Below are positions 15,356 through 19,866 of a stretch of 64,000 bases of DNA, piece after piece (position 1 is the stretch's first letter; the number at the start of each line of letters is the position of its first letter). The notes under the pieces are model-generated. The model searched no databases and was not told where the DNA came from. It worked only from the letters and a program-made list of their open reading frames with translations. The stretch comes from Pelagibacteraceae bacterium AG-422-D23 (GTDB lineage: Bacteria; Pseudomonadota; Alphaproteobacteria; Pelagibacterales; Pelagibacteraceae). Made by a program: the position numbers and the translations under genes. The stretch spans positions 25,565-89,564 of the forward strand of contig QCMQ01000004.1 in NCBI GenBank assembly GCA_003213615.1, read 5' to 3'.

Positions 15356-16132
15356 ATGGGAATAATAAAAAAATTTAGGATCAAATCCTTTAAACAAAAA
15401 AATTTCATTATAGATTTTAATAATGTTTCACTTTCATATGGTAATAGATTAATATTGGATAACATTAGCTTTAAAATATCTGAAAATACAATTTTTGGAA
15501 TGTTGGGACCTAATGGTGTAGGTAAAAGTACTATTTTTAACCTGATGACAGGATTAATTGCTCCAAATCAAGGCAATATTAAAATTAACAATATTGATGC
15601 AACGAATTACCCTGTGTATTTAAGAACAAGAAAATTTAAATTATCATATTGTCCTCAATATGGTGGATATTTTAGCGATTTAACACTTCTAGATAATCTA
15701 AAAGCAATAAGTGAAATAGTGATTGAAAATAAAAAAATTAGAACTGAGAGAATTAATTATTTGTTATCTAGATTTGAATTAGAAAATTTAAAAGATATTA
15801 AAGCTAAATTTTTATCAGGTGGCCAGCGGCGAAAGTTGGTAATTGCACTTGCTTTATTAGCAGAACCTCGTGTTTTACTTTTAGATGAGCCTTTCGCAGC
15901 TCTTGATGTTCTTACTATAAAAATGTTGCAAGAGATAATTGTCAATTTGCAACAAGAAAATAGAATTACTGTTATAATTTGTGATCACCAAGCTAGAGAT
16001 CTTCTTGCTTGCTGTGATTTAGCTATGATTTTAAGTAATGGAAAAATTGTAGCTCAGGATACACCATCAAACTTGGTTAAAAACATAGAAGCTAAAAACG
16101 CTTATTTTGGTGAAAGTTTTAAATTTAACTAA
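15356..16132 (+). CDS. lptB: LPS export ABC transporter ATPase LptB
   Basis: ATPase of the LptB2FG complex that extracts LPS from the inner membrane. The 258-residue protein has Walker A GPNGVGKST (~51-59), Q-loop YCPQYGG, ABC signature LSGGQRRK (~149-156), Walker B VLLLDEPFAALD and switch His in ICDHQARDLL. The HQ/ARD segment after the switch His is typical of LptB. It is ~15 residues longer at the N-terminus than most LptB. A GGATG start lies 1 bp after the lptC stop, giving tight coupling. Confidence 0.93.
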   Translation: MGIIKKFRIKSFKQKNFIIDFNNVSLSYGNRLILDNISFKISENTIFGMLGPNGVGKSTIFNLMTGLIAPNQGNIKINNIDATNYPVYLRTRKFKLSYCPQYGGYFSDLTLLDNLKAISEIVIENKKIRTERINYLLSRFELENLKDIKAKFLSGGQRRKLVIALALLAEPRVLLLDEPFAALDVLTIKMLQEIIVNLQQENRITVIICDHQARDLLACCDLAMILSNGKIVAQDTPSNLVKNIEAKNAYFGESFKFN

Positions 16133-16136
16133 GTCA

Positions 16137-17456
16137 ATGCCTAAAATATTAGTTTTAAAAAAAAAGATAAATAATTTTAATAGAATAATTTCTGTTAGTG
16201 GTGATAAAAGCATAAGTATAAGGTGGGTATTATTTTCATCTCTTGCAAATGGAGTTTCAAAAGCAAGAAATTTATTAATTTCTGAAGATGTTTTGGCAGC
16301 AATAAAAGCTATTAGAAAATTAGGAATTAAATCAGAAATAAAAAATAGTACATGTAAAATTTATGGAAAAGGAATTAATGGTTACAAATATAAAAAAAAT
16401 CTCACAATTAACGCTGAAAATTCTGGAACTCTAGGCAGGCTTATACTGGGTTTATTAATTAATTCCCCAAAACCAATAAAAATAATTGGCGATAATAGTT
16501 TATCAAAAAGAGATTTTAAAAGAATTGCTGACCCTTTAACCAGGTTTGGTGCAAAATTTAATTTAAAAAATAATAAAAATTTACCTTTAACTATTTTGGG
16601 TACAAAAAAACCAAAGCCTATAAAATTTACTGAAAAAAAAGGTTCTGCACAAATCAAAAGTTCAATAATTTTTGCTGGCATGAAAACAAACGGTTGTACA
16701 ACCCTGAGGGCAAAAAAATCTAGAAATCATACTGAAACTATGTGTAGATATCTAAATTTACCTTTAAAAGTGAAAAGCAAAAAAAATTATGATGAAATTT
16801 CTATAACAAAAGTAAAAAAAATTAAATGTTTAAACTACAATATTCCTTCTGATATTAGCTCTGGTGCTTTTTTTATGATTTTAACTGCCCTTTCTAAAAA
16901 CAGTGAGTTACTTATTAAAAATGTAAATATTAACCCATCAAGAATAGGCGTTATAACAATTCTAAAAAAAATGGGGGTAAAAATAAACTTTCAAAACAAA
17001 AAAAATTATAGAGGTGAAAAAATTGCAGATATAAAAATTAAAAGTGTAAAATCAATTAAACCAATTAATTGTCCTGTTAAGTTAAATGCTAGTGCAATAG
17101 ACGAATTTTTAGTTATTTTTTTATTAGCTGCTAAAGCTAAAGGAATATCTTATTTTAAAAATTTAGAAGAATTGAACAAAAAAGAAAGTCCAAGACTTAT
17201 ATGGGGCTCTAAAATTTTAAATATGATGGGTGTTAAAACAAATACGACGAAAGACTCGATAAAAATTTATGGTAATCCAAACTTAAAAATTAGTAAAAAA
17301 ATTATAATCAAAAATTATCTTAAAGACCACAGAGTTTTTATGACAAGTGTAATTGCTGCACTATCTTTTGGGGGTAAATGGCATATACATGATAAAGATT
17401 CCATACAAACATCATTTCCTACTTTTTTAAAAATTATAAATGAATTGAAAAAATAA
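16137..17456 (+). CDS. aroA: 3-phosphoshikimate 1-carboxyvinyltransferase (EPSP synthase)
   Basis: Sixth shikimate-pathway step: adds enolpyruvyl from PEP to shikimate 3-phosphate. The 439-residue protein has VSGDKSISIRW (~15-25), AENSGTLGRL (~91-100), DNSLSKRDFKRIADPL, SAQIKSS, RNHTETM, the catalytic Asp in SAIDEFLV, KKESPRL and LKDHRVFMT. Core Lys, Arg, Asp and Glu residues are present, but some neighbours differ from consensus (NAGT preceded by Glu rather than Gly; KESDRL reads KESPRL). A TTG at 16107 is possible but lies inside lptB; the ATG at 16137 gives the normal N-terminus. Confidence 0.93.
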   Translation: MPKILVLKKKINNFNRIISVSGDKSISIRWVLFSSLANGVSKARNLLISEDVLAAIKAIRKLGIKSEIKNSTCKIYGKGINGYKYKKNLTINAENSGTLGRLILGLLINSPKPIKIIGDNSLSKRDFKRIADPLTRFGAKFNLKNNKNLPLTILGTKKPKPIKFTEKKGSAQIKSSIIFAGMKTNGCTTLRAKKSRNHTETMCRYLNLPLKVKSKKNYDEISITKVKKIKCLNYNIPSDISSGAFFMILTALSKNSELLIKNVNINPSRIGVITILKKMGVKINFQNKKNYRGEKIADIKIKSVKSIKPINCPVKLNASAIDEFLVIFLLAAKAKGISYFKNLEELNKKESPRLIWGSKILNMMGVKTNTTKDSIKIYGNPNLKISKKIIIKNYLKDHRVFMTSVIAALSFGGKWHIHDKDSIQTSFPTFLKIINELKK

Positions 17457-18112
17457 TGAAAAAACGAAAAAATATATTAAAGGTAAGTATTGATAGTCCT
17501 GCAGCTGCGGGTGCAGGCACACAGGCAAAACTTATTTCTAAACACTTTAATCTTTTGCATCTTGACAGTGGACGTATTTACAGATTCATAGCGTATATTA
17601 AAATGACAGACCCTTTTAAATTTAATTATAAATATATAAAAAATAAAATGAATAAATTAAAAATAAAAGATCTTCAAAACAAAAAGTTGTCATCTGATAA
17701 AGTAGCTACTATTGCTTCAATTATTGCAAAAGATAAAAAGATAAGAAAATTAGCTCACGCTTTTCAATTAGAGTGTGCATATAATCCTCCAAAAAAGTAT
17801 GATGGTTCATGTTTGGATGGACGAGATATAGGTTCCGTAATCGTAAAAGATGCTGACGTTAAACTGTTCATAACAGCTAAAGTTGAAATTCGTGCTATGA
17901 GACGTTTTAAAGAGTTAAGAGCAAAAAACAAAAAAATATCCTATAAAGAGGTTCTAAAAAGTATCAGAAAACGTGATAAAAGTGATAAAAATAGGAAGAT
18001 TTCACCCTTAAAAAAAACAAAAGATATGTACTTGATAAATTCATCTTCTGAATCTATAAGCACCTGCTTTATGAAAATTAAAAAAATAATAGATAGGAAG
18101 ATAAGTATTTAA
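17456..18112 (+). CDS. cmk: Cytidylate kinase with altered P-loop
   Basis: Phosphorylates CMP/dCMP. The 218-residue protein aligns along the Cmk family: LDSGRIYRFIA (~36-46), SCLDGRDIGSVIV (~120-132), RRFKELRAKNKKISYKEVL and KRDKSDKNRKISPLK are all present. The nucleotide-binding P-loop is not canonical: where the family has DGPAxxGKGT, this protein reads DSPAAAGAGT (~13-22), so the Walker Lys is Ala and a Gly is Ser. The aroA-cmk-rpsA order is the classic one, so the identity is safe. How ATP is held without that Lys is unclear. Confidence 0.9.
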   Translation: MKKRKNILKVSIDSPAAAGAGTQAKLISKHFNLLHLDSGRIYRFIAYIKMTDPFKFNYKYIKNKMNKLKIKDLQNKKLSSDKVATIASIIAKDKKIRKLAHAFQLECAYNPPKKYDGSCLDGRDIGSVIVKDADVKLFITAKVEIRAMRRFKELRAKNKKISYKEVLKSIRKRDKSDKNRKISPLKKTKDMYLINSSSESISTCFMKIKKIIDRKISI

Positions 18113-19866
18113 TGGAAATTGAAGTTTATTCAAATTCAACAAATTCGTCACAAGAAGAGTTCAAAGAGTTATTAAAGTCAGAATTTTCAAAAAATAAAAA
18201 CATAGAAGAGGGTAAGGTAATTGAGTGTAAAGTAACTAAAATTACCAATAACTATTGTTATCTTTCATCAGATGGTTTGAAGCAGGAGCCAATATTAGAC
18301 GTCAATGAATTAAAAAATCTTGGGTTAATTGATAAAATTAAAGAAGGAAGTAAATTAAATGTACTACTAGAAAAATTAGAACACCCAAAAACTGGTGAAA
18401 TAGTTGTTTCTGCTGAAAAAGCAATTAAGCTTGAAGGCTGGAAAAAAATTGTTGAAATGTATAAAAATGAAGAGCCGGTAATTGGCAAAATTTTAAGAAA
18501 ATGTAAAGGTGGAGCAGAAGTTTCAATTATTGATCTTGGTCTTTTAGCTTTTCTTCCTGGAAGCATGATTGATGAGGTGCCTCTAAAAAACTTTGATCAT
18601 CTTATTGGAGAAACTCAAAAGTTTGCAATTGTAAAATTAGATATGCAAAGAGGAAATGTTGTTGTATCAAGAAAACATATAATCACATCATTTAAAGTTG
18701 CAGATAAAAAAAAAATAATTGAAGGATTTAAAGAAGGCGACATTGTAAAAGGAACATGTAAACAATTAACAACATTTGGTGCATTTTTTAGATTAGATAA
18801 TGGAATTGATGTTTTGTGTCATACTTCCGAACTATCCTATTCAAGAGTTGGTCATCCTGATGAGATTCTATCAGAAGGAGACAAAAAAGATTTGAAAATT
18901 ATTGGTGTAGATTTAGAGAAACTTCAGTTAAGTACAAGTTTAAAAAGATTAATGCCTGATCCATTTGATAATATTGATCAATATCAAGCTGGTAAAATTT
19001 ATAAAGTTAAAATATTAAAAATAACCGATTTTGGTTTTTTTGCTGAACTTGAAAAAGGCTTAGTTTGTTTATGTCACTCATCTGAATTTTCTCACACAAG
19101 AAAAAATATATCAGCAAAAAAGTTGGGATTTTTAGTGGGTCAAGAAATTAATGTAGTTTTAAAAGAAATTGATAAAGATCAAAGAAGGATATCTTTAAGT
19201 TACAAACTTACTCAAGAAAACCCTTATGAAGTTTTTAAAAAAAATTATAAAATTGGAGATGTTATAGAAACTAAGATTGTAGCAAAAAATGAGTACTCAT
19301 TATTTGTCAAAGTTGAAGCAATAAATGACCTTGAACTTTTCTGTCATGCTAATAATTTATCTTATCAGGGAAAACCAGAAGAAGAATTATCTAAATACAA
19401 AGTTGGGGATAGTCTTAAAGTAAAAATTCTTGAATGTAATATAGAAGATCAAAAAATTAGAGTTGGTTTAAGAGAAGCTCAGGGAAATGATCCAATTTTA
19501 TTTTTTGAAGACAAAAAATTAAATGATCGGATTTCATGTAAAGTAATATCGGCTGAAAGAAAGGAAGGCTTAAAAGTGAGACCGTTAGGTTGTGAGATGG
19601 ACTTTATTATAAAGAAATCAGCCATAAGTGCCAATCCTGCTGATGCCAGAGTTGAAAGATGGACAGGTGGGGAAACTGTTGATGTTTGTTTGGCTGAAAA
19701 AGATTTAAAAAAAAGAAAAATTGTTCTTTCAATTAAGTTATTAGAAACTCTCGAGAAAGCAGAGGCATTGGAAAAATATGGTACAACAGAAGGATCTGGA
19801 AGATCACTTCCTTTTAGCAATCTAGCAGACAGCTTGAAAAAAAAAGAAGATAACAATAAAGATTAA
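18112..19866 (+). CDS. rpsA: 30S ribosomal protein S1
   Basis: RNA-binding S1 protein that helps recruit mRNA to the 30S subunit. At 584 residues it carries about six S1/OB repeats, clearest at ~205-280 (GDIVKGTCKQLTTFGAFF...HTSELSY), ~290-365 (FGFFAELEKGL...HSSEFSH) and ~378-455. Three repeats carry an LCH or FCH tripeptide where Val/Leu-His (for example GLVHxSE) is usual. The start is ATG at 18112, inside the cmk stop (TAATG). The order cmk-rpsA-ihfB is standard for proteobacteria. Confidence 0.94.
   Translation: MEIEVYSNSTNSSQEEFKELLKSEFSKNKNIEEGKVIECKVTKITNNYCYLSSDGLKQEPILDVNELKNLGLIDKIKEGSKLNVLLEKLEHPKTGEIVVSAEKAIKLEGWKKIVEMYKNEEPVIGKILRKCKGGAEVSIIDLGLLAFLPGSMIDEVPLKNFDHLIGETQKFAIVKLDMQRGNVVVSRKHIITSFKVADKKKIIEGFKEGDIVKGTCKQLTTFGAFFRLDNGIDVLCHTSELSYSRVGHPDEILSEGDKKDLKIIGVDLEKLQLSTSLKRLMPDPFDNIDQYQAGKIYKVKILKITDFGFFAELEKGLVCLCHSSEFSHTRKNISAKKLGFLVGQEINVVLKEIDKDQRRISLSYKLTQENPYEVFKKNYKIGDVIETKIVAKNEYSLFVKVEAINDLELFCHANNLSYQGKPEEELSKYKVGDSLKVKILECNIEDQKIRVGLREAQGNDPILFFEDKKLNDRISCKVISAERKEGLKVRPLGCEMDFIIKKSAISANPADARVERWTGGETVDVCLAEKDLKKRKIVLSIKLLETLEKAEALEKYGTTEGSGRSLPFSNLADSLKKKEDNNKD

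Follow-up and report, generated by a model that had tools for sequence, protein, structure and literature searches.

The Walker A lysine is held to be near-indispensable and pseudokinase calls depend on it; adenylate kinase K13 mutants are near-dead. Published reports on Lys-to-Ala replacements conflict, some of the mutants being wholly inactive; the literature drawn on here comprises PMC3019153, PMC7259600, PMC9599734 and PMC5704018. In the structure of T. thermophilus CMP kinase (CMPK; PMC7259600), the lysine contacts the terminal phosphates of ADP and CDP alike, forming a bridge between them, and the phosphate undergoing transfer is gripped by Arg153 and Arg171. The P-loop lysine also bonds carbonyls at the loop start (PMC5704018). 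For the K14A mutant of the M. tuberculosis dephospho-CoA kinase CoaE, the published report (PMC3019153) gives 81% of kcat kept and a 1.5-fold increase in the ATP Km, with kcat/Km for ATP about two-fold lower, and its authors propose compensation by a lid arginine.

The window, by which we mean the whole stretch of 64,000 nucleotides that was analysed, comes from a genome whose closest named relatives are Pelagibacteraceae and contains a cmk gene whose product has no lysine in its P-loop (hereafter K-less). This product is like the bacterial (d)CMP kinases of known structure from E. coli, S. aureus and T. thermophilus in its predicted fold, cut-off-passing family scores, CMP-binding residues and lid arginines, but the Walker A lysine is replaced in it by Ala (a few relatives have Gly or Ser instead) and the first P-loop glycine by Ser. 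It resembles CoaE K14A in being a P-loop kinase with Ala at the lysine site, although the latter is a laboratory mutant of another kinase and not a natural fixed state. Among the papers listed by our literature search, which covered titles and abstracts of open-licence papers, none reported a lysine-free P-loop in a bacterial CMK. A haloarchaeal protein, the 'cytidylate kinase family protein' of a Salinibaculum plasmid (WP_302083062.1), also lacks the lysine (P-loop GPPGSGTTT), but it has Thr instead of Ala and lies on a far branch, and its relative on a Natronorubrum plasmid keeps the lysine (GSGKST). Other archaeal CMKs have Thr at this site too.

The cmk gene and its operon

The ORF at 17456-18112 (+) translates as ...KVSIDSPAAAGAGTQAKLISK... 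and scores 147 bits against PF02224 (curated cut-off 26) and 140.4 bits against TIGR00017, the latter only just above the cut-off of 135.55; it matches PF02224 alone and not PF13189 (Cytidylate_kin2). The predicted model has a pLDDT of 93.7, and in a fold comparison its best 14 chains (Z 25.5-22.2) are CMP kinases without exception (14/14). By family scores and predicted fold, the cmk product is thus classified as a CMP kinase. Residue roles were assigned from the spacing of motifs relative to the T. thermophilus CMPK structure (PMC7259600), and the putative CMP-binding and lid residues Ser/Thr38, Tyr42, Arg43, Arg97, Arg123, Asp124, Arg150, Arg173, Asp177 and Arg180 are all in place. The initial annotation, which had read the P-loop as DSPAAAGAGT with Ala for the Walker A lysine and the remaining protein as conserved, is borne out on both counts: codon 20 is GCA, the loop departs from the canonical Walker A pattern GxxxxGK[ST] at Ser14 and Ala20, and the protein retains DGRDIG as well as the lid arginines. 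The features are collected in Table 1.

Table 1. Features of the cmk locus in the window
Feature	Position	Strand	Remark
aroA (EPSP synthase; named from sequence), upstream of cmk	16107..17456	+	stop overlaps cmk start
cmk, (d)CMP kinase homologue, 218 aa, lysine-free P-loop	17456..18112	+	ORF, profile scores, predicted fold
P-loop D13-S14-P-A-A-A-G-A20-G-T22	17492..17521	+	
Ser14, replaces first P-loop glycine	17495..17497	+	Ser in 87/88 K-less loci
Codon 20, GCA (Ala), at Walker A lysine site	17513..17515	+	
Lys25, rescue residue proposed in the initial annotation	17528..17530	+	not K-less-specific
Arg40 (LDSGRIYR), candidate compensating charge	17573..17575	+	Lys/Arg in 86/88 K-less loci
Arg123-Asp124 of DGRD, putative CMP phosphate and cytosine contacts	17822..17827	+	motif match to Arg126/Asp127 of T. 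thermophilus CMPK
Arg150, putative lid arginine	17903..17905	+	motif spacing to T. thermophilus Arg153
Arg173, putative lid arginine	17972..17974	+	motif spacing to T. thermophilus Arg171
Lys187-Thr188, precede last strand	18014..18019	+	Thr188 in 87/87 K-less loci with a residue there
Asn195, end of last strand, usual Asp replaced	18038..18040	+	Asn in 86/87 K-less loci with a residue there
rpsA (ribosomal protein S1; named from sequence), downstream of cmk	18112..19866	+	start overlaps cmk stop

The gene order is lptC, lptB, aroA, cmk, rpsA, ihfB, pyrF and trpF, the neighbours being named from their sequences alone, and a matching order is present in related loci. One-base overlaps of stop and start (TAATG) occur at 17454-17458 (aroA/cmk) and 18110-18114 (cmk/rpsA), which suggests coupled translation of these genes. 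Variations on this arrangement were seen elsewhere. In six genomes of the family (L146-L151; genera g5 and g7) aroA and cmk seemingly lie in one open frame of 657-669 aa, which resembles the profile of a bifunctional EPSP synthase/cytidylate kinase. A lysine-bearing cmk (L205, DGESASGKST; L209, DGEAASGKST) is present in two genomes of the genus where neither aroA nor rpsA was matched within ~6.5 kb of it. In three further genomes (G199, G381 and G414) a second, off-operon K-less paralogue (L203:402-2103, L276 and L279) adjoins an ATP-sulfurylase-like gene, which PF01747 confirmed in G199 and which tblastn recognised at 53% in the other two, G381 and G414, where the paralogue and this gene share one orientation. 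In each of the three genomes a cmk fills the aroA-rpsA slot as well, the slot copy of G199 being lysine-bearing, so that G199 holds both forms and G381 and G414 hold two K-less copies each.

Distribution of the K-less form

The lysine site is occupied by Ala in 80, Gly in seven and Ser in one of 88 K-less loci, which correspond to 85 distinct rows since some loci represent the same genome twice; L001, which duplicates the cmk of the window, was left out, and L102 and L109 were dropped for having no residue at the site. Codon 20, read in 87 of these genes, is GCA in 39, GCT in 31, GCG in seven, GCC in two, GGA in seven and TCC in one, so all four alanine codons are in use (79 genes). The lysine and the first glycine (position 14) are kept in all 77 other loci of the order and in all 90 CMKs taken one per other alphaproteobacterial family. 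The latter were drawn from 107 genomes with any match, of which 17 were left unread: the genome of the window itself, another from its family, six with full-length, three with split and six with weak partial matches. The shares of K-less and lysine-bearing loci are not to be taken as frequencies, because L052-L112 were found with a K-less query and some other loci were picked for low scores. A tally with less bias, though probably an underestimate, comes from a degenerate DNA pattern for the P-loop. In the window's genus it matched 146 genomes out of 300 (21 of the 45 that are at least 90% complete), and its reversed control matched 0/300. The fixation across SAR11 raised in the initial annotation therefore holds within one clade and fails order-wide, where the 77 other loci keep the lysine.

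Viral contigs gave nothing comparable: none of the 58 pattern stretches examined codes for a relative, and a scan for GPPGSGTTT-type DNA motifs found none. Of the order's 149 good genomes, 13 had no PF02224 match among the candidates scored, which may reflect assembly gaps or candidates left unscored, with loss of the gene as another possibility.

As for the gene complement, no second PF02224 gene was found in the window's genome (G000, 94.67% complete) and no PF13189 match at E <= 0.001, so that a second canonical cmk, which the initial annotation had named as a possible way out, does not come into play; the genome has one adenylate kinase family match. The single-contig genomes G012 and G046 and the three-contig genome G052 have one PF02224 match each, K-less in every case, and single-contig G050 has one full-length K-less match plus one weak partial match below the cut-off.

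Phylogeny and proposed exchange of the two forms

In a tree built without the P-loop columns, the 20 K-less proteins included (20 of the 88 loci) form one clade (bootstrap 100, SH-aLRT 96), and the clade recurs in a separate, quick-search tree with 29 K-less rows (SH-aLRT 97). Lysine-bearing SAR11 CMKs fall outside it. Loss of the lysine is thus fixed in one clade and is not SAR11-wide. Several losses within SAR11 were considered and rejected, as the tree gives one origin and L133 and L167 are deep members within the K-less clade. L133/L208 has the loop DATAGSGSTS, with Ser at the lysine site, and its aroA sister belongs to a lysine-bearing genome.

The slot between aroA and rpsA holds either form among near relatives, K-less in L022 and L029 and lysine-bearing in L018, L019 and L206, and the aroA and rpsA genes of these loci show ordinary similarity. 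On a quick-search aroA tree of 79 loci (of 84 tried), the form changes six times, at least five of them forced, and one of the six lies where the K-less genus begins. A subset of 68 near relatives (62 K-less, five lysine-bearing and one unread) gives four changes, at least three of them forced on well supported branches, and none of 200 bootstrap trees gets by with only one change. The bootstraps of this tree and of the 20-locus CMK tree had not settled (0.986). Sister pairs of aroA with different cmk forms include L019/L029 (99) and, farther out, L208/L211 (100). With labels shuffled, the 68-locus tree gives a mean of 4.9 changes, little different from the observed four, so the lysine-bearing form is scattered almost randomly over it, in only five loci. 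We read the slot pattern as in-place replacement of one form by the other, a pattern that co-recombination of aroA may also explain. Such swapping of K-less and lysine-bearing forms in place would be a sign that both do the same job.

Selection and conserved residues

The median dN/dS is 0.11 (range 0.06-0.19) in 43 close K-less pairs and 0.23 over 3158 usable pairs, in many of which synonymous sites are near saturation; the highest values, up to 0.70, come from pairs with the off-operon copy L167. Arginines 43, 97, 123, 149, 150, 173 and 180 are invariant in all K-less rows with a residue there (87 or 88), Asp124, Asp174 and Asp177 are present in 100% of K-less rows, and Glu153, matched to an ATP-ribose contact, in 87/87. 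From the alignment, the lysine appears to be the only member of the T. thermophilus ADP/CDP contact set to be lost in the K-less clade. Judged from sequence, the K-less cmk is genuine and ancient, a form of a core enzyme that purifying selection has maintained throughout the clade.

Residues that might replace the lysine

Several positions distinguish the K-less form. Relative to the common residues of other families it carries Ala188Thr and Asp195Asn, position 188 being Ala in 79 and position 195 Asp in 86 of the 90 CMKs of those families; Lys/Arg187 (86/87 loci) and Lys/Arg209 (87/87) are likewise typical. Ser14 may accompany Ala20 because the lysine bonds loop-start carbonyls (PMC5704018). 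The K-less-linked residues may also be shared history, since the tree gives the loss of the lysine a single origin.

The two K-less loci without a basic residue at position 40 (L057 and L061) have Leu there. Among lysine-bearing CMKs, a basic residue occupies position 40 in 29 of the 34 from the sister family f2 and in both from genus g6, but in just one of the 41 others from the window's family; Lys187 occurs in 36 of 43 of the same family and Lys209 in 23 of 34 of the sister family. The changes at 187, 209 and 40 are hardly new inventions, because they are also common in lysine-bearing relatives. It is possible that position 40 was permissive, the basic residue coming first and the loss of lysine later. 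In profile matches, position 40 lines up with residue 33 of adenylate kinase (offset 7), an aspartate near the metal; our literature search found nothing on adenylate kinase Asp33 for or against this correspondence.

Probable function of the K-less protein

We propose, with a probability of about 0.78, that the cmk product of the window is the (d)CMP kinase of the cell and is active with a lysine-free P-loop. The P-loop backbone amides, Thr22 and Mg would carry out phosphoryl transfer together with Arg123, Arg150 and Arg173, some rate cost would follow from loss of the lysine, and the changes at positions 14, 188 and 195 would re-tune the loop. The likeliest replacement charge may be Lys/Arg40, which lies near the putative CMP-binding Tyr42-Arg43 in sequence, a guess to be held loosely. 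A more specific form of the proposal is tentative and has the odds against it, namely that this is a fully active natural kinase with its charge supplied from the acceptor side by Lys/Arg40, that the basic residue made the P-loop lysine dispensable, and that lineages kept either form while recombining in one slot.

The alternatives each meet contrary evidence. The protein might be a pseudoenzyme that binds CMP in regulation or in a role for the rpsA operon, with CDP made by another kinase; this we regard as unlikely, even though a residue central to ATP phosphate binding is lost and a few genomes (G199, G381 and G414) have another CMK copy. The donor-side lid arginines and Glu153 would be expected to drift in such a protein and are kept, the K-less gene is the sole PF02224 match in the single-contig genomes G012 and G046, the window's genome has no PF13189 kinase and just the one adenylate kinase family member to turn to, and near relatives carry the lysine-bearing form in the same slot. 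Rather less probable still is that phosphotransfer is kept with a changed substrate or donor. The K-less paralogue beside an ATP-sulfurylase-like gene in three genomes hints that the clade may be versatile, but the residues matched to contacts with the cytosine, ribose and phosphate of CMP in the T. thermophilus structure are invariant, and the operon copy occupies the place that the lysine-bearing cmk has in relatives. It is very improbable that, as the initial annotation had suggested, the lysine of Gln-Ala-Lys swings in for the missing one. This residue, Lys25, is five residues past Ala20 and is indeed basic in 84 of 88 K-less loci, but the site is equally so in lysine-bearing CMKs (0.99 of the 77 of the order and 0.86, or 77/90, of the others), is Leu, Gln or Glu in four K-less loci, and lies within the first helix (20-31) of the predicted structure. 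A sequencing or assembly error in this genome, the other caveat of the initial annotation, is refuted by recurrence of the same state with differing codons in the 88 loci, which come from many separate assemblies, and in the 146 of 300 genomes; its chance is negligible.

Under the favoured reading of an active enzyme, the K-less form is probably the only recognisable CMP kinase of many marine SAR11 bacteria, and an active one, as far as sequence comparison can tell. A natural series of related enzymes, some with the lysine and some without, that alternate within a single operon of abundant marine bacteria would allow a direct test of the role of this lysine in phosphoryl transfer. The same series would open to test the changes that make the lysine dispensable and could serve as a model for ATP-using enzymes without it.
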